Shown here in pieces: positions 633-24,501 of a stretch of DNA of 32,971 nucleotides. The translations under genes were made by a program, and so were the position numbers. The notes beneath the pieces were generated by a model. It did not search any database, was not told where the DNA came from, and saw nothing but the letters and a program-made list of their open reading frames with translations. Position 1 is the first letter of the stretch, and each line of letters starts with the position of its first letter. The stretch comes from Thermotogae bacterium (GTDB lineage: Bacteria > Thermotogota > Thermotogae > Petrotogales > Petrotogaceae), in NCBI GenBank assembly GCA_022704305.1, contig JAKJGQ010000006.1, forward strand, positions 10,894-43,864, in the 5' to 3' direction.

Positions 633-1520
633 ATGGTTAATACGGTTGATATGTGTTTGTTTTTTACAAAAAATCATGATATTTGTAGTGTTGAAGGATG
701 GTGGCATCCAAATAATAAGGTTATTTCTAACATCATATATTTGAACGATGATAACGGAAACTACATAATATATGATAAAAATTATATTAAACTTACAAGA
801 AAAGATGACGGGAAATGGAGAACTTTTGAAGAACAAGAAAATATTGTAAATAATAAACGGATTTTAGAAGATGCTCTATTTATAAAATATAAAAAATTTA
901 TAAATAAAGAAGATATTAATTATTTTACAAATCCTTTTGAAGTATTTTTAAAATTTAAAATTCAAAGACCTGAAGCGTATAAAATAACTAAAAAAGTATT
1001 AGATATTTTAAAGGTGGAAGAAAAAGAAAGTAATATTGGTATTGTAGGTTCATATCAAATTGGAATATACAATGAACATAGTGACATTGATATAATGTTT
1101 AAAAACGATATTAAAACCAATCTTGAAATATTTAAAAATATTAAAAAATTATCAGAAAAGTATCCTGTTTATGATAGGAATAAAAAACTACCTTTAAGAT
1201 TTTTTTATAATAACGTTTTATTTTGTTGTCATTTTGCATATGAAAATGATAGTGAAATATTTAAAGGTTTTTCTACTAATTATATAAAAAAATGTGCTTA
1301 TAAAGGAACCGTTGAAATAACTGATATTACACATAGTATTTATACTCCGACTGTATTAAAAGCTAAAGAAATAAATAATAAAGAAGAATTATGGCTTGTA
1401 ATATATCATGGCGGAGAAAAAGGAGAATTTAATATTGGAGACACATTAAAAATAGATGGAGAATTGATTGAAAATGAGAAAATACGTTTTATAAATCTTG
1501 TAAAAACATCAAAAATATAA
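633..1520 (+). CDS. Nucleotidyltransferase-domain protein (pol-beta superfamily), cargo gene 1
   Basis: This is a 295-residue protein, lysine-rich and AT-rich. At about residue 138 it has GSYQIGIYNEHSDIDIMF, the GS...DxD signature of pol-beta-type nucleotidyltransferases; the paired Asp residues would bind metal. About 135 residues precede the motif and do not resemble anything I can name. The C-terminal 45 residues (LWLVIYHGGEKGEFNIGDTL) are beta-rich and could be a small OB- or SH3-like domain. The start ATG has a good AAAGGAG site. It is the first of three closely spaced + strand genes flanked by IS copies. The base composition is clearly lower in GC than the genes right of 4633, which suggests transfer. 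The substrate is unknown; antibiotic, nucleotide or RNA targets are all possible. Confidence 0.7.
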   Translation: MVNTVDMCLFFTKNHDICSVEGWWHPNNKVISNIIYLNDDNGNYIIYDKNYIKLTRKDDGKWRTFEEQENIVNNKRILEDALFIKYKKFINKEDINYFTNPFEVFLKFKIQRPEAYKITKKVLDILKVEEKESNIGIVGSYQIGIYNEHSDIDIMFKNDIKTNLEIFKNIKKLSEKYPVYDRNKKLPLRFFYNNVLFCCHFAYENDSEIFKGFSTNYIKKCAYKGTVEITDITHSIYTPTVLKAKEINNKEELWLVIYHGGEKGEFNIGDTLKIDGELIENEKIRFINLVKTSKI

Positions 1521-1530
1521 AAACGAGTTG

Positions 1531-2259
1531 ATGAACATGAGTTGGAATAATGTATGGAAAGGAAATAATTTATATTCAAATGATACAGTACGGAATTTTA
1601 TAACTAATGTAAAGATGAATCATATATCAAATTTACTTAATCAGAATTATAAATTTCAAAATATAGTAGAAATAGGATGTGGAGATGGAAAAATGCTTTT
1701 TGAATTATCAAAAAAATATAATTCAAAAAGCATTATTGGTATAGATATTTCAACAGAAGCTTTAAAACTTGCTAATCAGAGTGCACGAACTCTGAATATT
1801 GAATCAAATTTTTTAATAGGAACAGCTGATAATATTCCTTTACCAGAGTGCTCAGCAGATTTTTGCTTTTCATTAGGAGTTATAGAGCATTATAATGAAA
1901 CCCAAAAAATTTTTAATTCTATAAAAGAAATGAAAAGAATTCTTAAACCAGGTGGAATTGCAGTGGTTATGGTACCTAATTATTATTCAATAGGAGTAAT
2001 TGACAGAAAGTATCAACAAAGAAAAGGAACGTGGATTTTTGGATTCCAGCAGGAGTTAAAAAGGAAGTTTATTTTAGAATGTTTTAATAAATCTGAATTT
2101 AGTGGCATCAAGAGTAATATAGAAGAATTTGTAATTATACCTGGAATTAGAAAACCGATAAATTATTATATTATACATGGGTTAGACAAATTTATGAGGT
2201 TATTTTCAAAAGAGTTTGGTTTTTACTTATATACAATGGGGATAAAAGGAGAAAATTAA
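1531..2259 (+). CDS. Class I SAM-dependent methyltransferase, cargo gene 2
   Basis: This is a protein of about 242 residues with the Rossmann-type methyltransferase fold. Motif I is VEIGCGDGKMLFEL (about residues 46-59), followed by the acidic end of strand 2 in GIDIS. FSLGVIEHY and the post-motif RILKPGGIAVVMVPNYY come later, as in UbiE/Methyltransf_11-type enzymes. The C-terminus (NYYIIHGLDKFMRLF) is hydrophobic and aromatic. A TTG at 1528 is also in frame, but ATG at 1531 or 1537 is more likely; GAG at 1525-1527 favours 1537. It starts about 10 bases after the nucleotidyltransferase gene and overlaps the transporter by one base (TAATG), so the three genes are probably translationally coupled. 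The substrate is unknown. Confidence 0.82.
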   Translation: MNMSWNNVWKGNNLYSNDTVRNFITNVKMNHISNLLNQNYKFQNIVEIGCGDGKMLFELSKKYNSKSIIGIDISTEALKLANQSARTLNIESNFLIGTADNIPLPECSADFCFSLGVIEHYNETQKIFNSIKEMKRILKPGGIAVVMVPNYYSIGVIDRKYQQRKGTWIFGFQQELKRKFILECFNKSEFSGIKSNIEEFVIIPGIRKPINYYIIHGLDKFMRLFSKEFGFYLYTMGIKGEN

Positions 2260-3098
2260 TGATATATGCTATATTTTCAGCGGTAATAATGGGTTTTATA
2301 CCTATTTTAAACAAATTTGGAGTAACCGGGTTATCTCCGGTATATGCAACTTTTTTAAATTCTTTTGTTGCTTTTTTAATAGCTTTTATCACGATCAACA
2401 TTAAAAAAACAATATTGGTAAAGCCTGATTTATACTCATTTTTAGTTGGAATTTTAAATTCATGTGGATTACTATTTATGTATTTTGGATTAGAATTTTT
2501 AAATCCTGCATTAGCTTCGGTGTTAGGAAAAAGTTATTTTATTTTTATTCTACTCATCGGTTGTTTGATATTTAAAGAGAGATTTAATAAAAAAATGTGG
2601 TTATTGATTTTAATTAGCTTATCAGGTATATTGTTGATAACAAATCCTTTAAACATAAAGATTGAGGGAAGTTCTTCCAAAGGGTTTTTATTTGTAATTT
2701 TATCGTCGTGTTCATTTGCATTTAGTAATACAATGGCTAAAAAGGCTCAATTAAAGAGTACAGAATTAGTATTATTTAATAATTTTATAACTATGATAGT
2801 TATGTTAGTAGTTATGCTGATTACAAACCAAAGTTTCTCGGCGAATTTAACAAATATAGCTTACATATCAATAGCTGCTTTTTTTGGTTCATACCTTGGA
2901 CTTGTTTTTTATTATAAGGCAATCAAAACAATTTCTTTTACGATTTCAAATCTTGTAAGAGAAATCAGCCCTATTATAACGATTTTAGTTACTTTGATTA
3001 TTTTACCCTCCAAAATTGAATTGATTCAATGGATTGGAATGTTTATTATTTTAGTATGTTCGATATTGATGGTAAAAAATTATAATAATCAAAAGTAA
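2259..3098 (+). CDS. EamA/DMT-superfamily permease, cargo gene 3
   Basis: This is a 279-residue, very hydrophobic protein with about ten predicted membrane segments arranged as two EamA halves (about 1-135 and 140-275). Typical family features are visible: a first helix ending in PILNKFG, LASVLGKSYFIFILLIG at the end of the first half, and YYKAIKTISFTISNLVREISP in the second. Such drug/metabolite transporters move small molecules or metabolites across the inner membrane. The start overlaps the methyltransferase stop and has AGGAG about 7 bases upstream. Next to a nucleotidyltransferase and a methyltransferase, export of a modified small molecule is a reasonable but unproven idea. Confidence 0.85.
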   Translation: MIYAIFSAVIMGFIPILNKFGVTGLSPVYATFLNSFVAFLIAFITINIKKTILVKPDLYSFLVGILNSCGLLFMYFGLEFLNPALASVLGKSYFIFILLIGCLIFKERFNKKMWLLILISLSGILLITNPLNIKIEGSSSKGFLFVILSSCSFAFSNTMAKKAQLKSTELVLFNNFITMIVMLVVMLITNQSFSANLTNIAYISIAAFFGSYLGLVFYYKAIKTISFTISNLVREISPIITILVTLIILPSKIELIQWIGMFIILVCSILMVKNYNNQK

Positions 3099-3278: not shown

Positions 3279-4043
3279 TTAAGCTATTAACAAGGACTGA
3301 GTTCTGTATTGAACAGGGCTCAGTCCTTTTAGCTTGCCCTTGATCCTATGATGATTGTAGTAGTATATGTATTTTTCAAGTTCCTCACGGAACTCTTCAA
3401 AACTTTCAAACTCCCGAAGATACAGTAGCTCAGATTTAAGTATGCCAAAGAAGTTCTCCATTACAGCATTATCCAGACAGTTGCCTTTCATGGACATACT
3501 CTGTCGGATACCTTTTTCTTTTAGGCGGTGCTGATACATTTTGTGCTGGTACTGCCACCCTTGATCGGAGTGAAAAATCAGATTAGTACCATCCGCATAC
3601 ATATCCAAGATTGGAGATAAATAAAGCTTCCTGCTAAAGAGAGAGAACTCTGTTATATCGGTTGTCCATTTCTGGTTAGGTGCGTTTGCATGGAAATTTC
3701 TATTGATTAGGTTAGGCGCTACTTTTCCAATATCTCCTTTGTATGAACGATACTTCCTAATCCTTACTCTGCACTTCAAACCAAGGATATTCATTAACCG
3801 ACTCACGGTCTTATGGTTGATGATATATCCACGGTTTCGTATCTCAAGAGTTATCCTTCGATAACCATACCTGCCTTGATTTTCATGGTAGATAGCAGTT
3901 ATCTCTTCCTTTTCGATACGATACTTATCCAGCCGTTGCATTCGTTTTAGATAGTAGTAATATGTGCTTCTTGGTAGACCTGCGATAACTAACAGAGCCT
4001 TAAGCGGATATTTCTGCCTTAGTTCTGAAATGACTGTTACTTT
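3279..4043 (-). CDS. IS150-group transposase orfB (DDE integrase domain) with internal deletion
   Basis: This frame supplies the catalytic half of the transposase. From the frameshift zone it reads VTVISELRQKYPLKALL, then the HTH_21 segment (YGYRRITLEIRNRGY), then the rve core. The three acidic residues are visible: D in WTTDITEF, D in FHSDQGWQYQ and E in NAVMENFFG, with 35 residues between the second D and E. Only 30 residues separate the first and second D; IS150-like proteins have about 59. About 29 residues are therefore missing in frame at LDMY/ADGTNL (near 3600). The first ATG in this frame is at 3941, but family practice is a -1 frameshift from orfA. With the deletion, this copy is probably inactive. 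Confidence 0.85.
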   Translation of the reverse strand, partial: KVTVISELRQKYPLKALLVIAGLPRSTYYYYLKRMQRLDKYRIEKEEITAIYHENQGRYGYRRITLEIRNRGYIINHKTVSRLMNILGLKCRVRIRKYRSYKGDIGKVAPNLINRNFHANAPNQKWTTDITEFSLFSRKLYLSPILDMYADGTNLIFHSDQGWQYQHKMYQHRLKEKGIRQSMSMKGNCLDNAVMENFFGILKSELLYLREFESFEEFREELEKYIYYYNHHRIKGKLKGLSPVQYRTQSLLIA

Positions 4044-4555
4044 TTCTTCTGTTCTGATTTTTCCCGCTCGAGAACTAAGGCGTTCAATTTTTTTAAGTAT
4101 TCATTCTCCATGCGAAGACGCTGGACTTCTGCCAGAAGATCTTCGTTCTCATTGACATTTTTCTTTGGTTTGAGGTTTTTCTTCTTTATCATGCTTTTTC
4201 GTCCTCGTCTTTCCTTCAGAAGGGCTTGTGGTCCTTCTTCATAATATATGTGCTCCCATTTTGCCACTGTAGGGGCACTGGGAATACAGAAATAGTTAGC
4301 TGTTTCTCTTAATGACATTTCTTTCATGTGCATATATTCTACAACATAGATTTTAAATTTTCCACTATATGTTCCTAAAGAACTACATAAGCCTTCAGAA
4401 CCATGAGTTTCATAAAGACGAACCCACCGTTCAAGAATGGAGTGATTTATACCATATTTCTTTGTAATAGTTTTAAATCCTCCATTTTTACCAGAGAGAT
4501 ACTCATCAACTAACATTAGTCTAAATTCATCTGAATACTTTCTTTTTCTTGACAT
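4037..4555 (-). CDS. IS150-group transposase orfA (helix-turn-helix protein)
   Basis: This is a 172-residue basic protein. The N-terminal helix-turn-helix region contains SDEFRLMLVDEYLSG, and a second one follows (MSLRETANYFCIPSAPTVAKW). The C-terminus is a leucine-zipper-like coiled coil (ENEDLLAEVQRLRMENEYLKK), as in IS3-family OrfA. It ends in a lysine-rich tail coded by an A-rich run, where a -1 slip would join it to orfB to make the full transposase. The start ATG at 4555 lies 49 bases from the element end. It is intact here, and its N-terminal portion is nearly identical in copy 1. Confidence 0.9.
   Translation of the reverse strand: MSRKRKYSDEFRLMLVDEYLSGKNGGFKTITKKYGINHSILERWVRLYETHGSEGLCSSLGTYSGKFKIYVVEYMHMKEMSLRETANYFCIPSAPTVAKWEHIYYEEGPQALLKERRGRKSMIKKKNLKPKKNVNENEDLLAEVQRLRMENEYLKKLNALVLEREKSEQKKK
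4040..4051 (-). promoter_or_regulatory. Probable -1 programmed frameshift site joining orfA and orfB
   Basis: On the minus strand the end of orfA reads CAG-AAG-AAA-AAG-TAA. A -1 slip on the final A-AAG gives GTA-ACA-GTC, which continues without a stop into the orfB frame. IS3-family elements normally make their transposase this way. The heptamer is not a perfect A-AAA-AAG, because G precedes the last AAA codon. Confidence 0.6.
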
Positions 4556-4632: not shown

Positions 4633-6825
4633 CTAAGCTTTTTTCATCATATTTTTTACAATAAAACTAGCAACATGTGCTCCCTTGGTTCCTCTACCAA
4701 AACCTGCATCCATACTGTTCTCTATAGCCATATCATTAGAGATTTGTGTTCCGCCTACGATAAGAAGAAACTTATCTCTTACCCCTTTTTCCACAGCAAT
4801 ATCGTTAAGTTTTTTCATGTTTGCAATATGTATATCATTATGAGTGACTATCATGGAAGCAAGCACGGCATCGGCACCAACTTCTATTGCAGAATCTATC
4901 ATTTTTTCAGGAGGAATACTGGTTCCAAGATAAACATACTTTATACCGTACTTTTCTATTCCGCCATGCTTTATATCAAGAATTTCCCTCAGTCCGACGT
5001 TATGCTCGTCGTTTCCCACAGTACCAGCTACAACTTTTATTACTCTTTTTTTGCAGAAGTCAAAAAGTACATCTTCAGAAAGTGCTTCAGTTTTTTTGGG
5101 AAGTACAAGATCCTTCTTGTTAATGAAAAAAGGCACTTTACCTTTAAGCTCAACATATGTTCCTTCGCTTGGATGTAGAACCTTTATACTAATAACTTCG
5201 GGATCTTCAAGACCCATTTTACGGCATATTTCAATTGCTGCAGCTTCTGCATATTCGGAACTTTCCGGTATGGTCATGTCTATCTGTATCACTCCGTCAT
5301 AACTCCATTCCGTTTCAGGCTTGATAAGATCTTTTTTTCTGTACTCACGTATATCCAGCAATCGTTTCTGTACATTGTCATCTTCATCCAGTTCATTGAG
5401 AAACTTAATTTTGTTATGGTGACAAAGGGTACAACCACCTACCGGATCACAGTCTTTTATGATCCCTGCAGGGAGATTATTGTAACCGAAATGTTCACAT
5501 ACTGGCGCCATATAATCTTGATCTCTGGGAACAACTGTTCCGGCGCCTATTCCCCCGTCTTTCTGCCTTACTATTCCATCTCCCATTCTTTCGGGATAAA
5601 AACCATTGTCTACGAACATTCCCTCTTCAACAGCATTGAAAAATCCACCCATTTCGATGATTTCTTCAAGCATCAGTATAGCTCTTATTTTGAGGTTGCG
5701 TATATCTTCACGGACGTTTGCTTCATCTATCTTTACATACTTCTTTATGCCGTCCATAGATATCAGAGTATGCTTGGCCGTCTCTATACCTCTTATCGAA
5801 TTGATATGCCATGGAACATTCCTGCCTTCATCTGGAGTTATAGTAGACTGCAGATCGGCACTTGTAAGCCTTGAAAGCGCTGCATTAAGTACGTGTATCC
5901 TTGTCGCATCCATAAGATCTGATTCTATATACCGTGTGTTCATCTGTGCCCTGAATCTATAGCCCTTAAAAAGTTCACGTATTGTAAGCGCATAGATCAT
6001 ATTTATTCTCATTTCCGGTGAAGGCGATGTCGTAGGAGGCACGGTTGAAAGAGCAATGTTACCCTTTTTCATTCCTGCCTTTACAGAGTACAAGGAGTTT
6101 ACCGCATGCTGTACCAGAAGCTCAGGCATAACATTCCATGCTTTTTTTGCTGATGCATTGGCATTGTGGGCCCCGTCTATCTGAAGCATATCTGCGCTTG
6201 CCATTATTTTCTTTGCTACGGCTGCATCCACAAAGGAGCGAACCATATTTATTCCCCTGTAAAGAACATTATACTGCGGATCCTGATGTGCACCGTTTAT
6301 ACCTTCTTCGGCAAAAAGAACTGCAACTTCCGGTCCTGCTATTCCGCTTATATAGCTGTGAAGATTTATAGGCCTACCTACTTCATCTTCTATAAGGTCC
6401 AAAGCTTTTCTTGAAGCTCTGATCTGTTTGCGAGTTATAGGAATGCCGCCTATTCCTTCAGGAGTACCTTCAATCAGTCCGTCCATATGACTCTGCCCGA
6501 GAGTCCTGATAACCATTATATGGTCTGCACCATACCATGCTGCCATTCTCATTCTTCTTATATCTTCTTCAAACCTTCCAGAAGCAATTTCAGAAGTTAT
6601 GTTAACTTCTGGCTGTGGATCAATGTTGCCAAAGTAATGGGCAGAAGGAAGTGGCAGTGAGTTTTTAAGAGGTTCACTTATCTGGAAATACTTAAAACCA
6701 TTTATTTCTGTTCCCTCTTTAAGAGGCTTGCGCCAGTGCCAGCCTTTCCTTCTGGGAGCATAATTTTCAAGATCATTGAGTATCTCGTCGATATTTATCT
6801 TTTCATTTATATTCAATTCTTTCAT
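4633..6825 (-). CDS. oraE: D-ornithine 4,5-aminomutase, large (E) subunit, adenosyl-B12 and PLP dependent
   Basis: This is the catalytic subunit that moves the terminal amino group of ornithine to form 2,4-diaminopentanoate. The 730 residues consist of a long N-terminal TIM-barrel/PLP region (to about residue 500) and a C-terminal cobalamin-binding Rossmann domain. The B12 motif DxHxxG is seen as DEHNVG at residues 606-611, followed by YVYLGTS and the later IVGGTQ typical of base-off/His-on cobalamin domains. The length is close to the family norm (about 730-750). The start overlaps the oraS stop (ATGA), and GAGGGGG lies about 9 bases upstream. It is the last operon gene before the IS. Lysine 5,6-aminomutase is related but is split differently, and the ord/ort neighbours settle the assignment. 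Confidence 0.95.
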   Translation of the reverse strand: MKELNINEKINIDEILNDLENYAPRRKGWHWRKPLKEGTEINGFKYFQISEPLKNSLPLPSAHYFGNIDPQPEVNITSEIASGRFEEDIRRMRMAAWYGADHIMVIRTLGQSHMDGLIEGTPEGIGGIPITRKQIRASRKALDLIEDEVGRPINLHSYISGIAGPEVAVLFAEEGINGAHQDPQYNVLYRGINMVRSFVDAAVAKKIMASADMLQIDGAHNANASAKKAWNVMPELLVQHAVNSLYSVKAGMKKGNIALSTVPPTTSPSPEMRINMIYALTIRELFKGYRFRAQMNTRYIESDLMDATRIHVLNAALSRLTSADLQSTITPDEGRNVPWHINSIRGIETAKHTLISMDGIKKYVKIDEANVREDIRNLKIRAILMLEEIIEMGGFFNAVEEGMFVDNGFYPERMGDGIVRQKDGGIGAGTVVPRDQDYMAPVCEHFGYNNLPAGIIKDCDPVGGCTLCHHNKIKFLNELDEDDNVQKRLLDIREYRKKDLIKPETEWSYDGVIQIDMTIPESSEYAEAAAIEICRKMGLEDPEVISIKVLHPSEGTYVELKGKVPFFINKKDLVLPKKTEALSEDVLFDFCKKRVIKVVAGTVGNDEHNVGLREILDIKHGGIEKYGIKYVYLGTSIPPEKMIDSAIEVGADAVLASMIVTHNDIHIANMKKLNDIAVEKGVRDKFLLIVGGTQISNDMAIENSMDAGFGRGTKGAHVASFIVKNMMKKA

Positions 6826-7193
6826 GCTTTATTTACCCCCTCAAAAATCCTCTGCACAACATCCCAGAGCCTTCCCTGTATAAGTTCGGTTCCGGCCTGC
6901 TCCATGCTGATATTCTGATCCTTTGAGACTCTATATACTATATTTCCTGCGCCTTTGCCCAAAAGACCTTTTTCAAATATCTTGTCAACAAGTGCTTTAG
7001 CCTGAAGAGAACTGAACCCCATTCGTAAAAGAACAGATCTTTCTATTGAAGGGGATGTGTTCTTATATGCAAGATCTATGAGAGGATCAACTATCTTTTC
7101 GGTAAGATTCCAAAAGTATTTTTCCAGTTCCTCATCACTCATTTTTTCAAATCTCTTAGCTTTTACTTCAAAATCATCTTTCCTAGGAATCAT
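6822..7193 (-). CDS. oraS: D-ornithine 4,5-aminomutase, small (S) subunit
   Basis: This is the small partner of OraE, needed for an active aminomutase. From the ATG at 7193 it is 123 residues, close to the roughly 121 of clostridial OraS. An in-frame TTG at 7214 would add seven residues, but the G-run GGGGGG six bases before ATG 7193 favours the internal start (MIPRKDDFEVKAKRF). The protein is mostly helical, with SIERSVLLRMGFSSLQAKAL in the middle and DQNISMEQAGTELIQGRLW near the end. Its TGA overlaps the oraE ATG, consistent with equal production of the two subunits. Confidence 0.92.
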   Translation of the reverse strand: MIPRKDDFEVKAKRFEKMSDEELEKYFWNLTEKIVDPLIDLAYKNTSPSIERSVLLRMGFSSLQAKALVDKIFEKGLLGKGAGNIVYRVSKDQNISMEQAGTELIQGRLWDVVQRIFEGVNKA

Positions 7194-7210
7194 TTTTTCC
7201 CCCCGAAATC

Positions 7211-8623
7211 TCAAAGAGCTATCTCTTTTAAGTATTCTTTAACTTTTTCAACCCCGATATTTATATCCTCGGATATAAATTCAAGCTCTATATCAGAAAA
7301 GTCTTTTGTCCCGTATTTGTTCACAGCCTGCTTCAGATAAGATTTCCTTATAGATTGCAGAGGATACTCTGTAAATCCCATAAGACCAGGCGATGACGGA
7401 ATTACAATGTTTTTACCGGGAATATCTTCTTTTAACGGATCACCTGTTCTTATTTCAATACCGTTATGCCTTGCAAATGTAAGCTGTGCAGACGGAAGCT
7501 TGCCAGCTCCGGTATACTCTGTCTCGTTTACAACAATTATCTGGTCCTCGTTCATCTCTGTCGCAAGAGCAATTGCCCCGGCAAGGGAAGTGTTGCCGGC
7601 CGGTCCTCTTAAAAGACCTTCCATATTTGCAAGCATTTCTGTTACATAAAAAACTTCTCCCTGAGTAACCAAAATATACCTGTCCATATATCTTAGAGAT
7701 CTTGCCGCATTCCTTGGCACGTCCGCCCTGTCGGGAAATACTGCAAAAGGTACACCAAACCCTGTATGTCCCGTGGTAAAGGATTTTTTGTTAAAATCTC
7801 TGTCACTGGCCATATGAAGACCCTTAAGATCAACACTTACACCTATTATCTTTGTATCCTTAGCTCCTGCTTTTTTAAGTCCCCTGGCTGTTCCGGTAAG
7901 ATTCCCACCGCCTGCATGAGTTATCGCCACAGCATCGGGATATCTGCCAAACTGCCGTATAGACTGCTCAGCTATCTCATAACCGAGAGTTTCCACACCG
8001 GCAATTCCAAAAGGTGTGTAAAGTGAAGCGTTAAAGTAACCTGTATCTTCCAGAAGACGAAGAAAATAATAAAAAAGTTCTGGTCCAACCGAAAGCTGAA
8101 GTACTTCCGCTCCATATGCCTCACATGCCCTTTGCTTTTCTAAAATTTCAGGCTGTCCTACTCCTCTTGAATCATAGCATTCCTGCACTATAATAGACTT
8201 AAGCCCTTTTTTTGCGGCTTGGGAAGCCACCGCTGCACCATAGTTGCCGCTTGTGGCAGCTATTACTCCTTTAAAGCCAAGTTCCTTGGCTCTATATACA
8301 CTTACAGATGCTCTTCTATCTTTAAAAGATCCCGATGGATTGGTTGCTTCATCCTTTACGTAGATTCGCGCCCCTTTTCCTTTAGGAGATATTTTTTTAA
8401 TCAGTCTGTTTATATTTTTAAGTTCTACAAGCTGAGTATTCCCTACTCCTGTCTCAAGCTGTATTTGCCTTATCTTTTCAATGGGATATCCGCTGTCTGA
8501 AAGCATTTTTTCATAATCAAAAGCTATCCCGTGGATTTCATATTTCTGATAATCGACTCCCACAGATTTTTTCATTATTTCATTTTTTCTGGACATTACA
8601 GCTTCATATGAGTTATCAATCAT
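7211..8623 (-). CDS. ortB: 2-amino-4-oxopentanoate thiolase, beta subunit (PLP fold type II)
   Basis: With OrtA it cleaves 2-amino-4-oxopentanoate with CoA to alanine and acetyl-CoA. The sequence is threonine-synthase-like. The PLP lysine lies in NPSGSFKDRRASV (about residue 101 from the ATG at 8623), followed by an ATSGNYGAAVA phosphate/substrate loop, THAGGGNLTGTARGL, and PAGNTSLAGAIA near the C-terminal third. About 470 residues matches the family. A GTG at 8632 is also in frame, but ATG 8623 has AAGGTG 7 bases upstream. The gene overlaps the end of ortA by 8 bases. Confidence 0.93.
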   Translation of the reverse strand: MIDNSYEAVMSRKNEIMKKSVGVDYQKYEIHGIAFDYEKMLSDSGYPIEKIRQIQLETGVGNTQLVELKNINRLIKKISPKGKGARIYVKDEATNPSGSFKDRRASVSVYRAKELGFKGVIAATSGNYGAAVASQAAKKGLKSIIVQECYDSRGVGQPEILEKQRACEAYGAEVLQLSVGPELFYYFLRLLEDTGYFNASLYTPFGIAGVETLGYEIAEQSIRQFGRYPDAVAITHAGGGNLTGTARGLKKAGAKDTKIIGVSVDLKGLHMASDRDFNKKSFTTGHTGFGVPFAVFPDRADVPRNAARSLRYMDRYILVTQGEVFYVTEMLANMEGLLRGPAGNTSLAGAIALATEMNEDQIIVVNETEYTGAGKLPSAQLTFARHNGIEIRTGDPLKEDIPGKNIVIPSSPGLMGFTEYPLQSIRKSYLKQAVNKYGTKDFSDIELEFISEDINIGVEKVKEYLKEIAL

Positions 8624-8939
8624 CAAAATCACCTTTCATTATCTCCTGAAGCTTATTTACGGCAAGTATTAGTTCAGGGACAGGCTCCCCAAAATTATGT
8701 TCATATTTGGGATTGACTGCTATCATCTTACCCTTTACCTCTCTTCCTGTCACTGTTTCTACAGATACTTCCTGGCCTATACATGCAGATTCATCCTTTA
8801 AAAAACCTTTCACACGTATTTCAAGCGGAACCTTTCTGGTATCCTCCGGAAGATTAGCAGTACGCTCCTCAGGCCTGAGCCCTGTAAAACATATCTGTAC
8901 AAGACTCCCTTTCGGAAAGAATTGTTTTTCATTCTGCAT
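8616..8939 (-). CDS. ortA: 2-amino-4-oxopentanoate thiolase, alpha subunit
   Basis: This is the small partner of OrtB; the 107 residues match the usual size. It begins MQNEKQFFPKGSLVQI and contains the conserved LRPEERTANLPEDTRKVPLE and a closing region with NPKYEHNFGEPVPEL, which I recognise from the OrtA family. It lies one base after ord and overlaps ortB, so it is part of the same transcript. It is too small to have activity alone. The assignment rests on its motifs and on the flanking ord and ortB genes. Confidence 0.9.
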   Translation of the reverse strand: MQNEKQFFPKGSLVQICFTGLRPEERTANLPEDTRKVPLEIRVKGFLKDESACIGQEVSVETVTGREVKGKMIAVNPKYEHNFGEPVPELILAVNKLQEIMKGDFDD

Positions 8940-8940
8940 G

Positions 8941-9957
8941 TTAATTATCCCCCAGTAAAGCTCTGGGCATTGGCATGTCTATCATGCTCTTAAGTCCTGG
9001 GTCGATGTTTTCTATTACAAAAGGTATCATATTAGTAGCAAGAGCTATAGTTCCCTTTCCACCAGGTATCTCCGGCTTGGTTGAAACTGAGATGCTCGGA
9101 TCACCGTCTATCCATATGTAATCTCCGGTATTTACATTTTCAAGCTCCGGCCTTACCTGCTGGGGATGTTCAAGCTCTATAAGTAGCGTATCTCCACAGT
9201 AGGCTTTGGCAATATGCTTGCATCCTGCGACCATTCCGGGTTCAACCCTTACATACTTGGTTTCTCTTAAAACGTTGGATATTATCGGTTCCCTTGTCTG
9301 TTCTATTCTGTCTATCTCCCAACCAAGTGCCTGGGAAATCATATATATTGACTGTTCAAAACCTATGTGTCCGACTATTTTACCGCTTTCAAGGCCTTCT
9401 TTAAACTGCTCGGGACTGGTTCCTACTCCCTGAGTTTCCATTACTGTGGGTCCGAAAGGCGAAAGATCATTTATTCTTGCAGCTTTTATCTTCTTAACGT
9501 TCAGCATGGCCGCTGTCATAGTTATGATCTGGGTATCAAGAACAAAACCAGGATTTATACCGGTTCCTAATACTGTCACTCCATATCTTCTGGCCATATT
9601 ATCTATTTCTTCTGCTTCCTCAGGATTAGTTACAAAAGGATACGCCATTTCTTCTGCAATCGTTATAACATTGATATGTCTCTTTATCGCCTGAATTATC
9701 TGCGATTTAACAACCTTCACGAAAGAGTTGGTGGCAATCACAACCAGGTCAGGATTACTGTCTTCAAGCATTTTAACTGGATCTGAGTATATTACTATTC
9801 CGGTATCTTTTGTTCCGAGAATATTCCCTATATCTTTTCCCATAAAATCTTCCCTGGAATCATATACTCCTACCAAACTTAGATCATACTTGGTCATTAT
9901 GTTCCTGGCTATACCGCTTCCCATAGCTCCGAAACCCCATACTGCAACTCTATACAT
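8941..9957 (-). CDS. ord: 2,4-diaminopentanoate dehydrogenase
   Basis: It oxidatively deaminates 2,4-diaminopentanoate to 2-amino-4-oxopentanoate with NAD(P)+, the step between OraSE and OrtAB. The N-terminal Rossmann motif is GFGAMGSG at residues 8-15. The remainder resembles dihydrodipicolinate-reductase-like amine dehydrogenases ([28 protein letters not shown]). I chose ATG 9957 (MYRVAVWGF) because AAGGAGGGG lies six bases upstream and the next residues are the Rossmann strand. An ATG at 9990 would add 11 residues without a binding site. It is the first gene of the ornithine operon. Confidence 0.93.
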
Positions 9958-10112
9958 GTTATTCCCCTCCTTAAATGAAATTTTTTTCATTCAGTATAAT
10001 ATATGATACAATTTTCATTAAAAAAAATCCATTCAGATTAAAGCTGTTAATATAAGACTATCTGCTATTAAGGCTGAATTAAGCATTGTAAACTTTATAA
10101 AACGCATTCATA
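9958..10112 (-). promoter_or_regulatory. Leader and promoter region of the ornithine operon
   Basis: This AT-rich leader separates the alaS terminator from ord. On the minus strand a TATTAT/TATACT -10-like element lies near 9996-10003 with only a weak -35. An inverted repeat AATGAAA-TTTT-TTTCATT (9974-9991) lies just downstream and could be an operator or an RNA hairpin. I see no clear -24/-12 promoter and no recognisable riboswitch. Confidence 0.35.
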
Positions 10113-19329: not shown

Positions 19330-20502
19330 ATGAGAATTACAGAGATAATGATAAATAATTCGGCACTAAGCGATCTTCAGAGCACCATGCGAAAGTTCAG
19401 TAAGCTAAATGAACAGCTCACTTCAGGCAAAAAAGTTAATTTCCCTTCGGACAATGCAGCCATTGCTTCAAGAATGTCAAACCTCGATAGCAGGCTTAGG
19501 GAAATAGAGCGCTATCAGAGCAATGCAAGTATTGTAGAAAACTTTTCCAAGATGTATGATCAGATACTTCAGGATGTATCGTCAGTCTATACCAGAGTGA
19601 AATCACTTGCCGTTCAGGGAGCCAACTCTGGAACCCTTGACAGCAACCTTGACAGAAAAAGCATTGCAGACGAACTGGAAAAAATTAACGATCATCTCAT
19701 TTCTCTTGCCAATACAAGCGTATCTGGAAAGTTTATTTTCGGAGGTGCTGAGTCTGATAAAACCCCTGTTAGTGATTCAGGAGACATCATGACAGATCCG
19801 AAAGCAAATATCAAGCATAAAATATCAGTTGGCGGATACGAGCTTGAGTATGGAGTAACTGTATACGATGCTTTCGGAACCAAAAGCGGAACCTCTATAT
19901 TTAAGATAGTCGACAGACTTAAAGATGCCTTTATTAAATCTGACGAGATAACCAAAGACCTAAAGGATGCCATAAAAACCAAGGATAATCTGAGCATGCA
20001 GAATGTAACGTTAAAAAATGAAATAAAAGAGATTGAAAAAAGAAAGCTCCAGGCTGAAGCTGCCGGCAATACTGCTTTGGCTGCTTCTCTCCAGACTCAG
20101 ATCGATGAAAAAAACAGCTCGATAGCAACTAATGAAACCAAAATCAAAGAACTCCAGGGTGATCCTTCCGCCGCAACTCCTGTGAAAGGATTAATTGAAA
20201 GCAAATCTGAACTCCTCAAAAAAGCTGCCGAAAGCATTCAAAATGAACTCGGAGCCATAGATGAAATTCAGGAGTCCTCCAGCAGAACAATTTCTCAGGT
20301 AGGCGGAACTCAAAGACTCCTTGAACTTACCAACAGCAGGATGGAGAACTTCAAAACTTTTTCGGAGGAGTTTCTTGCTACTGAGACAGATGCTGACCCA
20401 GCAAAGGTTTATACCGATATGGCTATGCAAAAATCAGTAATGGACGCAGCTTTAAAAGCTTTGGCACAGATAGTCCCCAAAACCATCCTTGACTTTATGT
20501 GA
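19330..20502 (+). CDS. flgL: Flagellar hook-associated protein 3, with coiled-coil insertion
   Basis: This is the second hook-filament junction protein. The N-terminus is flagellin-like (MRITEIMINNSALSDLQSTM, LNEQLTSGKKVNFPSDNAA), followed by SVSGKFIFGG and a C-terminal helix ending ALAQIVPKTILDFM. At about residues 205-300 a strongly predicted coiled coil is inserted (LKNEIKEIEKRKLQAEA, AASLQTQIDEKNSSIA), giving 390 residues against about 300 in many bacteria. ATG 19330 follows AGGAGG by five bases; an earlier in-frame start at 19306 is inside flgK and has no binding site. Confidence 0.93.
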   Translation: MRITEIMINNSALSDLQSTMRKFSKLNEQLTSGKKVNFPSDNAAIASRMSNLDSRLREIERYQSNASIVENFSKMYDQILQDVSSVYTRVKSLAVQGANSGTLDSNLDRKSIADELEKINDHLISLANTSVSGKFIFGGAESDKTPVSDSGDIMTDPKANIKHKISVGGYELEYGVTVYDAFGTKSGTSIFKIVDRLKDAFIKSDEITKDLKDAIKTKDNLSMQNVTLKNEIKEIEKRKLQAEAAGNTALAASLQTQIDEKNSSIATNETKIKELQGDPSAATPVKGLIESKSELLKKAAESIQNELGAIDEIQESSSRTISQVGGTQRLLELTNSRMENFKTFSEEFLATETDADPAKVYTDMAMQKSVMDAALKALAQIVPKTILDFM

Positions 20503-20515
20503 TAGATATATAAAA

Positions 20516-21022
20516 ATGTTCGTTTTCAAAAAAAAATCCCTCCTTCCGATTATTTTTTTCTGTATGCTTTTACTTACAGCTTGCGGACCAGTATATGAGG
20601 AAAAACCGGAAGTGTATACAAAAGAACTCTCCGTCTTTGTGGACGAAGAGTTTTGTTATACTGTTTTCATAAAAAATTTTCCTAATATAAAAAGCTTCAG
20701 TATCCTTATTGATTTTGACAAGAACTATCTGGCTCCTGTTTTTGTTGACGAAAGGTTCTATTATACTCTGAGTCCTCTGGCTGATTCTTCTCTGGTTTTC
20801 ACAAAACACAGTTACAACTCTTTGGTTGTGGGAGTGACTATGACAGAAGCTTTTTCAGCCGGCGCAGAGGAAATGGTGTTGTTGGTTTTCAAGTTCAAAG
20901 CCAAATCACCTGGCGATACAGCCATACACATTGTGCAAACAGATACGACTTTTTTTTCCGAAAACTTAAACACTCCTTTTTCAGGTTATTCGGTTATCAA
21001 TTCATCAATACATATAAGATAG
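20516..21022 (+). CDS. Small lipoprotein with a cohesin-like beta domain, in the flagellar operon
   Basis: This protein has about 168 residues. A lipoprotein signal peptide is clear: basic MFVFKKK, a hydrophobic core, and lipobox LLTAC with Cys at about residue 23. The mature part is a single beta-sandwich-like domain. The pattern VFIKNFPNIKSFSILIDFDKNYLAP, then SLVVGVTMTEAFSAG, then VLLVFKFKAKSPGDTAIHIV follows that of cohesin/CBM-type domains. The ATG at 20516 is 13 bases after the flgL stop but has a poor ribosome binding site; a TTG at 20489 would overlap flgL. It and the next lipoprotein sit between flgL and fliW. The cohesin-like call is from pattern recognition only. Confidence 0.7.
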   Translation: MFVFKKKSLLPIIFFCMLLLTACGPVYEEKPEVYTKELSVFVDEEFCYTVFIKNFPNIKSFSILIDFDKNYLAPVFVDERFYYTLSPLADSSLVFTKHSYNSLVVGVTMTEAFSAGAEEMVLLVFKFKAKSPGDTAIHIVQTDTTFFSENLNTPFSGYSVINSSIHIR

Positions 21023-21035
21023 TCAGAGGTGTTTT

Positions 21036-23711
21036 ATGAAAAATGCATATTTGGTTACTGTTCTGTTTATTATAGTTTTTTTATTTTCAGCGTGCACTTC
21101 GAAAAGTTCTGCGTTTCAGCCGATAAATTCCAAAAATATTTCCATATCAGACAGCGATCATGGAGCAGTTCTTTCAACATCGCGTGATATATACGGTATA
21201 CAGTTACATATAAAAACTCCTGAAGGTACTAACCGTGAAGATCTAGTTTTTTCAGGAGACATTATTCATATTATACAGCAGATAAATCCTGCAGAGTACA
21301 AAGTTGTACTGGCAGGTAAAAACGGATTCATAAAACCTTCAGAACCTTTTCTTACCATAAAAAAAGCAAAATCCAAAGATATACATATAATAAACGAGGA
21401 GCTGCCGCTTTCAGAGAAGGCTCTTACTGTACGAAGCTTTATAGACCGCAACGATACGGACTACTCTAAATATGGACTTTATATCAAGAAAAGCTTTACT
21501 CTCAAGGGCGATGAGCTTTTGTGCGATCTATATGCCGTAAATAGGAAAGGAAAAGAAAAGCTCTATGCTTTTGGCCTAGAATTCACATTTGCCAGTACCG
21601 CTCTCACACTTAATGATTTCACATTTTCCCCTTCGATAAACACAGATTTCATATCTCTTAAATCAGATGCTTCTTCTATGCCTTTTATAATTGCAAGTTC
21701 GGCACGTTCAAAGGAAAAAGCACTGGACTTTACTTCACCTTTAAAAATAGGAACCTTCAGATTCAGTGTAATCGGTGAGAACCTTGCGGCTGCACTTGAT
21801 ATAAACGTAGACAGTTTAAAAGTAATCGATACCCTGGACAGTTCAATTAAAGACCTGCCTGTGATTGTTCCTGCAAAAGGAACGCCTGTGGTGATGATAC
21901 AATCCTTTGTGGGAGATTTTAATAAAGATGGATCCATAGACGGAACAGATCTTTCAATTTTTCAGGCTGCATACTTTGCCAATAATACGGCAGTTGATAT
22001 ATACCCGGCACAGGATACTGACAAAGACGGTTTTTATGATATAAGTACAGGTGACATGAAAATCACGGTTGACGACCTTATAGTCTTTGCCGCAAATTAC
22101 AGTAAAAAAATGGGCTTTCCAACATATCCATATCCTGAAAATCTGACTGTAAAAACTCCTCTTGATACCAAATTGAAATGGGAGTATTTTGGTACCGCTT
22201 CTCCCTCATCTTTAAGAATTCATTATGGAAACAGCATTTCATCAATGACAAATGAAGTTCCCGCATCAGACATAGACCTTGCTTCAAAAACTGCTACCCT
22301 GCCTCTACTGTCCGAGGATAAATCCTATTATTGGCAGGTTTCTGCAACTTACCCTGCCGGAGAGGTTCACAGTGAAATATGGAAGTTCAGCACAAACGGA
22401 CTTCCTAAAATATCAGTAAACAGGCTGGGCAGTAAGGAAGGTACGGCAATTCCTTCCGGATTAACCGATGTGGCCATAAGCAATATTCCTATATACTGGT
22501 CGGCACCTGATTCTGACGGAGATACTGTAACTTGCACAATCAAGCTTTTCAATTCATCAGACTATCTTGAATCTTCGGAAATATCCGGTGCTTTTTCAGA
22601 AACAACTCAGTCATCGGCAACCATAAAAGGACCTCTTCTGTACAACAAAGATTACTTCATTCAGATAAGAGCAGAAGACAGTTCTCTGGGAGTTTCGGTT
22701 CTGGGAAATGCTGCTTCGCCGTATTTTTTCAGAACCAAAGAAGGAATTTCTCTGGACAGCAGTACTTTCCCGCTTAAGAAAGCTTATGTGTCTGCGCGCT
22801 TTAACGGACTTTACGAAGTAGACTATTCTGCTCTCATATCCTCCGGGACTGTTTCATCCTCGTGCGCTTTTAACACTCCTGGCTTATTCCCTATAGTGGA
22901 ATCAGAGTACTTTCAAAACAATAAAACAGACCCTCAATACATGATAAGCGTTATAGGCAACTATAATAAAGATCCAAAGTTCTACATCGGACAGAGTCAT
23001 GTTCTTGGAGCGTTTGACACTATCCCTGCCTCCTTCACGGGACTTAAGGAAGAATGGTCTGTCTGTGCCCTGACAATGGAGTCTGAAGGCGCAACCAAGC
23101 TCTTTATAGGCACTTCTTCAAATATTTATAAATTCCCTGATATAACTGACCTTTCAAACTTTAAGAAGCTTAAGGTTCCAGGTATAGACGACATGGAAAA
23201 GAAAGGAAATTACCTTTATCTCGCCTGCAAGTCAGCTAATAGGCTCCTAGTAGTCGACACTTCAGGAGATATGATGATCAAGGCTTCCAAGGCTATAGGT
23301 AGTCCCATCGACCTTAAGGTAAACGGAGACTTCCTTTATGTCCTTACAGAAGGCAAAACCCTTTTTAAGTATAGTATAGTTTCTCCTGAGCTTCTCATAG
23401 ATAAGGGAAATATAACTTCGGTCGGCGGACTTTCCGCAGTTTACAAACTAGCCGTATACTCTGATAGCTCAGCTAAAGCTGGATATGTGTGTTGTGGATC
23501 AGGTGGACTTAAAGTTATAGACCTCGAAAAAATGACAGAAGCAAAGGCTTTAAAGGACATTGAAGCCAAGGATGCTGTTGTGAGGGGAAAGCTTTTATTT
23601 GTAATTTCCGAAAATTCAATATACTTTTATTCACTTATGGAACCCATGAATCCTCAGCTTATAAAATCTTGGCCGGTTACTTCAAACTTATCCACCATAA
23701 AAGTATGGTAG
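21036..23711 (+). CDS. Large multidomain lipoprotein: cohesin-like, dockerin, FnIII-like and propeller-like segments
   Basis: The protein has 891 residues and a lipobox FLFSAC (Cys at residue 20). In order: a beta-rich N-terminal part (about 25-120); a cohesin-like domain (about 145-265); a dockerin type I module with two calcium loops (GDFNKDGSIDGTDLSIF at about 293-309 and DTDKDGFYD...ITVDDLIVFAANY at about 327-355); two fibronectin-III-like domains (about 363-455 and 456-567), the second with a DSDGDTV calcium-type loop; and a C-terminal part (about 580-891) with repeated short motifs such as KLFIGTSSNIYKF, YLYLACKSANRLLVVD and AGYVCCGSGGLKVIDL, typical of LVIVD/propeller repeats. Its start is preceded by AGAGGTG. 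Presumably it is anchored at the cell surface or in the periplasm. Function unknown. Confidence 0.75.
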   Translation: MKNAYLVTVLFIIVFLFSACTSKSSAFQPINSKNISISDSDHGAVLSTSRDIYGIQLHIKTPEGTNREDLVFSGDIIHIIQQINPAEYKVVLAGKNGFIKPSEPFLTIKKAKSKDIHIINEELPLSEKALTVRSFIDRNDTDYSKYGLYIKKSFTLKGDELLCDLYAVNRKGKEKLYAFGLEFTFASTALTLNDFTFSPSINTDFISLKSDASSMPFIIASSARSKEKALDFTSPLKIGTFRFSVIGENLAAALDINVDSLKVIDTLDSSIKDLPVIVPAKGTPVVMIQSFVGDFNKDGSIDGTDLSIFQAAYFANNTAVDIYPAQDTDKDGFYDISTGDMKITVDDLIVFAANYSKKMGFPTYPYPENLTVKTPLDTKLKWEYFGTASPSSLRIHYGNSISSMTNEVPASDIDLASKTATLPLLSEDKSYYWQVSATYPAGEVHSEIWKFSTNGLPKISVNRLGSKEGTAIPSGLTDVAISNIPIYWSAPDSDGDTVTCTIKLFNSSDYLESSEISGAFSETTQSSATIKGPLLYNKDYFIQIRAEDSSLGVSVLGNAASPYFFRTKEGISLDSSTFPLKKAYVSARFNGLYEVDYSALISSGTVSSSCAFNTPGLFPIVESEYFQNNKTDPQYMISVIGNYNKDPKFYIGQSHVLGAFDTIPASFTGLKEEWSVCALTMESEGATKLFIGTSSNIYKFPDITDLSNFKKLKVPGIDDMEKKGNYLYLACKSANRLLVVDTSGDMMIKASKAIGSPIDLKVNGDFLYVLTEGKTLFKYSIVSPELLIDKGNITSVGGLSAVYKLAVYSDSSAKAGYVCCGSGGLKVIDLEKMTEAKALKDIEAKDAVVRGKLLFVISENSIYFYSLMEPMNPQLIKSWPVTSNLSTIKVW

Positions 23712-23730
23712 TTTTATAGTATAATAGCAG

Positions 23731-23754
23731 GGAGGGGATTTTCTCCTCCCTTTC
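23731..23754 (+). terminator. Terminator-like hairpin between the large lipoprotein gene and fliW
   Basis: GGGAGGGGA (23731-23739) pairs with TCTCCTCCC (23743-23751), eight standard pairs and one G-T, loop TTT, with only a short T-tail. TATAAT lies just upstream at 23721-23726 but has no -35. The hairpin may reduce read-through to fliW-csrA. Confidence 0.55.
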
Positions 23755-23777: not shown

Positions 23778-24275
23778 ATGAATATTATACAGACCAAAAT
23801 CGGAACAATCGACATTGAAAAGCATCAGATAATAACTTTTGAAAGTGGTCTCCCTGGTTTTGAAAATCTTAGCAAATTCATAGTCTATACAGACGATTCC
23901 ATAGCCCCCATACTCTGGCTGGTAAGTATAGAAGATTCTGAAATTGCCTTTCCGGTCATTCCGCCTAAAAATGTTCGTATTGATTACTCCTTCTTTATTC
24001 CGCAGGAAGTAGTTGACTATCTGGAAATATCCAAAGAGGAAGATCTAGTTATTCTTTCCGTTCTGACTATTCCGCAGCAGTCACAGGAGATCTCCCTTAA
24101 TCTTATAGCTCCGATGCTCATATCGCTCATAAATAAGAAAGGTATTCAGCTTATACTGGACAATACTCAGTACAAGTCCAAACATCTGCTGAAAGAAGAA
24201 CTGGAAAGATCTCAAAATCTTCTTAAACAAAGTGCAGGTGAGGATAATGCTGGTTCTGACGAGAAAAACCAATGA
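23778..24275 (+). CDS. fliW: Flagellar assembly factor, CsrA antagonist
   Basis: FliW binds CsrA and prevents it from blocking flagellin translation; flagellin in turn binds FliW, so filament growth is tied to flagellin supply. The 165 residues contain family blocks IITFESGLPGFENLSKFIVY, PILWLVSIEDSEIAFPVI, LVILSVLTIP and ISLNLIAPMLI. AAAGGAGG lies upstream of the ATG. It overlaps the csrA start, the usual fliW-csrA arrangement. The C-terminal 30 residues are polar and variable. Confidence 0.95.
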   Translation: MNIIQTKIGTIDIEKHQIITFESGLPGFENLSKFIVYTDDSIAPILWLVSIEDSEIAFPVIPPKNVRIDYSFFIPQEVVDYLEISKEEDLVILSVLTIPQQSQEISLNLIAPMLISLINKKGIQLILDNTQYKSKHLLKEELERSQNLLKQSAGEDNAGSDEKNQ

Positions 24276-24501
24276 GTATGTTGAGATAATTGCTGGTGAT
24301 AGACATATAAAAATCACCATTCTGGACTCTAACAGAGGTACTGTGAAAATAGGTTTTGACGCTGAAAAGGATATAAAGATATACCGTGGTGAGGTTTACG
24401 ATGAAATAGTTTCACAGAATATTTCATCGGTAAATACAGATATTAAATCCCTTAAAGACATATCAAGGATTTTTCCGGGAGGAAAAAAGGGTGAGAATTG
24501 A
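24247..24501 (+). CDS. csrA: Carbon storage regulator, RNA-binding translational regulator
   Basis: This is a small dimeric protein that binds GGA motifs in mRNA leaders. MLVLTRKTNEYVEI at the start and VKIGFDAEKDIKIYRGEVYDE are diagnostic. From ATG 24247 it is 84 residues, a little longer than the usual 60-75; the C-terminal extension ends DISRIFPGGKKGEN. It starts inside the fliW 3' end (GTGAGG just upstream), so the two are probably coupled. The stop is overlapped by the next gene. Confidence 0.96.
   Translation: MLVLTRKTNEYVEIIAGDRHIKITILDSNRGTVKIGFDAEKDIKIYRGEVYDEIVSQNISSVNTDIKSLKDISRIFPGGKKGEN

Follow-up and report, generated by a model that had tools for sequence, protein, structure and literature searches.

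Adjacent genes for a cohesin lipoprotein and a cohesin-like/dockerin lipoprotein between flgL and fliW in a Thermotogae bacterium

Two adjacent genes, here called LpS and LpL, lie between the flagellar genes flgL and fliW in a 32,971-nucleotide stretch of a Thermotogae bacterium draft genome (GenBank assembly GCA_022704305.1; contig JAKJGQ010000006.1, positions 10,894 to 43,864 of the forward strand). This stretch is "the window" below, and all coordinates without a locus label refer to it. The draft totals 2.04 Mb in 244 contigs and is 80% complete. A preliminary description, made from the letters of the window alone, had placed two lipoprotein open reading frames (ORFs) at this site; their coordinates were confirmed, and the lipoboxes LTA/C23 and FSA/C20 can be read directly. 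From these lipoboxes both proteins are predicted to be exported and lipid-anchored. The two genes and the parts of their products are as follows:

20516-21022, + strand: LpS, 168 amino acids, a small lipoprotein made up of a signal peptide and one cohesin
20516-20584, + strand: LpS lipoprotein signal peptide, lipobox LTA/C, Cys23 codon at 20582-20584 (read directly)
20603-21016, + strand: LpS cohesin domain (leave-one-out profile, model and Foldseek)
21036-23711, + strand: LpL, 891 amino acids, a large multidomain lipoprotein
21036-21095, + strand: LpL lipoprotein signal peptide, lipobox FSA/C, Cys20 codon at 21093-21095 (read directly)
21096-21437, + strand: LpL N-terminal domain, common to the Thermotogota family (alignment; a six-relative profile aligns onward through the dockerin)
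21438-21902, + strand: LpL cohesin-like domain, the weakest assignment (part of the 2e-17 leave-one-out match; low-confidence model)
21909-22109, + strand: LpL dockerin (leave-one-out profile, 1.9e-10; family profile against the PDB)
21915-21950, + strand: canonical calcium loop 1, D294-N296-D298-S300-D302-D305 (read directly)
21996-22076, + strand: calcium loop 2, split by an insertion, D321...D347 (14-sequence family alignment)
22128-22733, + strand: two Fn3-like domains, residues 365-566 (matches to relatives' Fn3-repeat lipoproteins)
22743-23708, + strand: C-terminal beta-propeller-like region of LVIVD type, residues 570-891 (LVIVD 0.025, below cut-off)

Domains of LpS and LpL

Because searches of Pfam, NCBIfam and the PDB with the single sequences gave sub-threshold scores, profiles built from the family were needed to assign these domains; a search of the genome contigs with LpL alone as query likewise found no relative. 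LpS is matched at 3.5e-7 by a cohesin profile of its relatives that was built without it, the best PDB matches of the family cohesin profile are solved cohesins (top 2.3e-10), and one family member scores above the cut-off of the Pfam Cohesin profile (PF00963). The model of mature LpS (predicted local distance difference test score 80.8, predicted template modelling score 0.78) gave, with Foldseek, a list whose top 50 PDB matches are all cohesins with template modelling (TM) scores up to 0.77, the best match being 2xdh (E-value 9.4e-9, TM 0.76/0.80). LpS is in essence a single cohesin, and confidence in its predicted fold is good.

A profile of the N-domain, cohesin and dockerin of six relatives, built without LpL, aligned LpL over positions 6-354 at 2e-17. 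The cohesin-like domain within this block is the weaker assignment: its model has low overall confidence (cohesin matches at E-value 1.3e-4), it does not match a cohesin-only profile built without LpL, and it is absent from the Pfam listing. Of the two cohesin-like folds proposed in the preliminary description, that of LpS is therefore well borne out and that of LpL weakly so.

The dockerin is matched at 1.9e-10, over 76 of 76 positions, by a profile of 13 relatives built without LpL; the best PDB matches of the family dockerin profile are dockerins (top 3.6e-6), and the relative in locus L129 reaches 23.0 bits with Pfam PF00404. In an alignment of 14 dockerins, D294 and D305 of loop 1 are invariant, as are D321, I343 and D347 of loop 2, and an insertion splits loop 2 throughout the family. 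On this split-loop reading, which rests on the alignment, the second half of loop 2 in LpL would be D340-M-K-I343-T-V-D-D347, corresponding to the family pattern (P)DGxIxxxD. The preliminary description had recognized two calcium loops; the first is indeed canonical, but the motif that it took for the second, DTDKDGFYD (residues 327-335, 22014-22040), lies inside the insertion, and the conserved second half belongs to D321...D340-D347.

The Fn3-like and propeller-like half of LpL is absent from the preliminary description. The Fn3-like part matches relatives' Fn3-repeat lipoproteins with whole-protein E-values down to 2e-20, and the C-terminal region matches, at 1.4e-6, a sequence that follows a broken family member at locus L185. 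A Pfam search of LpS and LpL found no cellulose-binding module and, as had been noted from the sequence, no enzyme domain.

A Thermotogota gene-pair family and a probable LpS-LpL complex

Do such genes occur together elsewhere? The profile of LpL's first 365 residues (N-domain, cohesin and dockerin) has hits in 43 of the 103 Thermotogota genomes, spread over 18 of 38 genera. The surroundings of the genes in four families, f1 (Petrotogaceae), f2 (Kosmotogaceae-type), f4 and f5, were scanned with the dockerin and cohesin profiles. A cohesin gene was found at most 300 bp from the dockerin gene in 32 of 39 cases (31 on the same strand), a count that includes the window and the broken gene of L185, comes from species that are not independent (nine genera) and was made with profiles enlarged with hits from the same loci. 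The partner cohesin gene is mostly upstream of the dockerin gene, with its cohesin at the C-terminus. Among the seven dockerin genes without such a neighbor, four lie downstream of a cohesin-dockerin pair, as a second dockerin gene; the gene next to one (L115) is a cohesin by Pfam at 1e-4; and L168 and L178 have no cohesin neighbor detectable in the profile scan. In a rough control, no cohesin or dockerin was found outside the window among 860 ORFs of at least 100 amino acids in 77 flagellar loci.

The matches to the LpL block in 43 genomes and the adjacency in 32 of 39 cases together argue that LpS and LpL belong to this gene-pair family. LpL has the lipobox, N-domain, cohesin and dockerin in one protein and an adjacent cohesin gene, and judged by sequence the pair is a divergent representative of a family in which cohesin and dockerin genes lie side by side, many of the family's proteins being lipoproteins. 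The cargo of the family varies and includes propellers, Fn3 domains, a solute-binding protein, a caspase and a peptidase. The parts of LpL recur in the same order at locus L116 (genome G013), where the LVIVD propeller is matched at 1e-20, and at L117 a 167-amino-acid cohesin lipoprotein with the layout of LpS adjoins a dockerin-bearing secreted protein.

Several of these loci carry other cargo. At L115:3458-6297 and L117:5184-7750 the cohesin lipoprotein genes adjoin genes for dockerin proteins that by eye resemble peptidases (papain-like and metalloprotease-like). Kosmotoga pacifica (L114:1961-14105) has two tandem cohesin-dockerin lipoproteins with a C-terminal solute-binding domain of SBP_bac_5 type, next to permease-like genes; SBP_bac_5 was confirmed by Pfam in the 1120-amino-acid copy. 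The cohesin-dockerin lipoprotein of Thermotogae bacterium ADurb.Bin062 (L129:10001-14740) is fused to Fn3 and a caspase domain (Peptidase_C14, 4.7e-14). The dockerin protein of 13 further loci (L193-L205, families f9-f11) is secreted, is mostly 840-935 amino acids long with the dockerin at its C-terminus. Downstream of it, most loci have a gene for a lipoprotein-like protein of ~200 amino acids; this ~200-amino-acid lipoprotein beside the Thermotogaceae-type dockerins gave no cohesin profile match.

We think it probable that the lipoproteins LpS and LpL pair through non-cellulosomal cohesin and dockerin modules, forming a calcium-dependent complex in the envelope that shows the Fn3/propeller part of LpL. 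The LpS cohesin would most likely bind the calcium-loaded LpL dockerin to give a stable heterodimer with two lipid anchors. Presented in the envelope in this way, the Fn3-like and propeller-like domains would probably serve in adhesion, in ligand binding or as a scaffold, and another dockerin could dock on the cohesin-like domain that LpL itself has. A single dockerin gene, that of LpL, was detected in the genome, where LpL and LpS are also the only hits of the family profile, so the two are each other's obvious partners. Homology identifies the domains, cohesin genes lie beside dockerin genes in relatives, and the location is unique, whereas the binding, its calcium dependence, the side of the membrane and the function are inferred. 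A calcium-dependent envelope complex had been suggested in the preliminary description, and it appears plausible for a cohesin lipoprotein encoded beside a cohesin plus dockerin lipoprotein, with sequence support that now extends across the family. If such pairs bind, they would provide modular attachment of envelope proteins in an early-branching phylum that bears an outer sheath (the toga), and would be a source of heat-stable orthogonal cohesin-dockerin pairs.

A number of observations weigh against this proposal. LpS scores 17.0 bits (E-value 0.0071) with Pfam Cohesin, below the curated cut-off of 24.1 bits, and the LpL dockerin scores 15.1 bits (E-value 0.028) with PF00404, for which the cut-off is 22.9, and 0.012 with NCBIfam, also below cut-off. 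Loop 2 of LpL is without the usual DG (PDG has become GDM), the dockerin was not confidently folded in the model of the LpL cohesin-dockerin segment, and the branch that leads to LpL is very long (3.5 changes per site). Because the draft is incomplete, other partners could be missing from it, and the dockerin genes of families f9-f11, in all 13 loci, have no detected cohesin neighbor.

The very long branch, the altered loop 2 and the sub-threshold Pfam scores would also fit if the domains were decaying in this lineage and binding had been lost, so that LpL worked only via its Fn3/propeller half. We consider such a relic distinctly unlikely, since both ORFs are intact, all family-invariant dockerin positions are kept, loop 1 is canonical, and LpS, a cohesin and nothing else, has been retained. 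LpL might also bind itself: many of its relatives have a cohesin directly before the dockerin, and LpL's own cohesin-like domain could take a dockerin from within the molecule or from a neighboring LpL, giving a closed form or chains that LpS would cap or compete with. This too is unlikely, because the LpL cohesin is more degenerate than that of LpS, and the dockerin proteins of L182, L184 and L188 are without a cohesin of their own but keep the neighboring cohesin gene, which makes pairing with the neighbor the commoner feature.

The position between flgL and fliW

The genes and features that flank the pair are:

19330-20502, + strand: flgL, hook-filament junction protein (Flagellin_N 1.8e-17; ~37-60% identity to relatives' FlgL)
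23730-23750, + strand: GC-rich hairpin GGGAGGGGATTTTCTCCTCCC, between LpL and fliW, just 5' of the fliW ribosome-binding site
23778-24275, + strand: fliW (PF02623, 1.6e-34)
24247-24501, + strand: csrA (PF02599, 3.2e-18)

The local gene order is flgM-flgN-flgK-flgL-LpS-LpL-fliW-csrA-PfkB-like gene, with LpS and LpL on the same strand as flgL and fliW and gaps of 13 bp between flgL and LpS, 13 bp between LpS and LpL and 66 bp between LpL and fliW. The hairpin region in the last gap has a folding energy of -26.7 kcal/mol (z -2.8) and is absent from the list of predicted terminators; it is possibly an attenuator or weak terminator that might set fliW-csrA apart. A promoter scan found no strong promoter inside the LpS-LpL stretch. 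In GC content and codon use LpS and LpL do not differ from the surrounding operon, so by that measure the insertion is not recent or the donor was a similar genome. A recent foreign insertion is thus unsupported by GC or codon use, and the long branch of LpL leaves its origin unplaced.

The preliminary description had tied the pair to motility and proposed a survey of this position in relatives. In 55 other Thermotogota genomes flgL directly precedes fliW, the two lying no more than 110 bp apart, and an insert is present in none of them, compared with 3,278 bp in the window; both genes are therefore absent from this position in all 55, and the link to motility is not upheld. The candidate of a conserved flagellar-operon gene was rejected on the same count. 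Fli​W was not found in any of the f2 (Kosmotogaceae-type) genomes examined, yet many of them carry the gene-pair family. The family is also present in Mesotoga-like genomes that are without FliW and in Kosmotoga pacifica, which is recorded as non-motile and with a typical toga (PMC5217533). Because the family is common across the phylum, non-swimming species included, the flagellar location looks one-off; the placement between flgL and fliW was probably a lineage-specific event that brought, at most, co-expression with late flagellar genes. The same-genus genome G001 is uninformative for the locus, as its assembly contains neither flgK nor fliW nor the PfkB-like gene.

The shared strand, the two 13-bp gaps, the operon-like GC and codon use and the lack of a strong internal promoter would all suit a pair dedicated to the flagellum, one that anchors the flagellum, or the place where it leaves the cell, to the toga or that senses calcium for motility. 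We regard this as very unlikely given that the insert is unique among the 56 genomes in which flgL adjoins fliW, that the family occurs in genomes without fliW and in a non-motile species, and that neither LpS nor LpL has a flagellar domain. Highly improbable, in our estimation, is an arrangement in which the cell membrane and the toga each anchor one of the two lipoproteins, and their calcium-dependent clasp ties these layers together and, brought under flagellar control in this lineage, keeps the toga in place around the flagellar exit. Could misassembly instead explain the insertion, a foreign fragment having been joined to the flagellar genes in a metagenome-type draft? The uniqueness of the insertion, the 244 contigs and 80% completeness of the draft and the uninformative same-genus genome would allow this, but the match of GC and codon use with the flanks, the operon-like spacing and the completeness of both neighboring genes make it extremely improbable.

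The surroundings of fliW vary in other ways. In some families flgL is not adjacent to fliW; there, a secreted 242-amino-acid protein is encoded directly upstream of fliW in two f4 genomes (L080:2446-3171 and L237:731-1456), and a hydrolase-like gene takes that place in family f9. In genus g7 (L067:1995-2975, L071, L073, L075 and L077) two FliW domains are fused in tandem in a protein of ~326 amino acids. Elsewhere in the window, nucleotidyltransferase, methyltransferase and EamA transporter genes at 633-3095 have a GC content of 22-27%, against ~39% around them, and were possibly acquired; an IS3-like transposase pair lies beside them at 3282-4555. Positions 4636-9990 hold an ornithine-degradation cluster (ornithine 4,5-aminomutase subunits, OrtA, a pyridoxal phosphate enzyme and 2,4-diaminopentanoate dehydrogenase).

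Comparison with known cohesin and dockerin systems

The cellulosomes of Clostridium and Acetivibrio use the same two interacting module types; type II-like cellulosomal dockerins come nearest to the family dockerin profile, as ScaB type II cohesins do to the cohesin profile. LpS and LpL differ from cellulosomes in having one cohesin per protein, no scaffoldin array, cellulose-binding module or glycoside hydrolase, and in both being lipoproteins. A cellulosome was rejected, as there is no scaffoldin or enzyme and the genome has a single detected dockerin gene.

In Archaeoglobus fulgidus two adjacent genes encode a cohesin protein and a protein that combines cohesin and dockerin. This pair resembles LpS-LpL in being non-cellulosomal with few modules, and its cohesin, 2xdh, is the best structural match of LpS; it differs in being archaeal and far removed in sequence, with 13% identity in the structural alignment of 2xdh and LpS, whereas the Fn3/propeller cargo, the bacterial lipoboxes and the split-loop dockerin are features of the Thermotogota family. 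Strong binding of the A. fulgidus cohesin and dockerin modules has been reported (PMC9012536, PMC9705933), which is a precedent for binding between modules of this non-cellulosomal kind. Anaerobic methanotrophic (ANME) archaea have non-cellulolytic dockerins on OppA-type solute-binding proteins (PMC9012536), to which the cohesin-dockerin block fused to SBP_bac_5 in Kosmotoga pacifica is similar; ANME also have proteins that carry as many as five cohesins, and dockerin proteins of the S-layer (PMC9012536), neither of which was seen here. Within the phylum, the LVIVD/Fn3 lipoproteins (e.g., L092 1951-3975 and L116) have the same Fn3 and propeller cargo as LpL, but some of them, such as the L092 protein, are without a detected cohesin or dockerin.

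Our search of the open-access literature found no description of Thermotogota cohesin/dockerin gene pairs, and in the papers searched the family with its split-loop dockerin appears undescribed. Non-cellulosomal cohesins and dockerins as such are already known, although poorly understood, and across the Thermotogota they turn up repeatedly as compact gene pairs that are complete in themselves.

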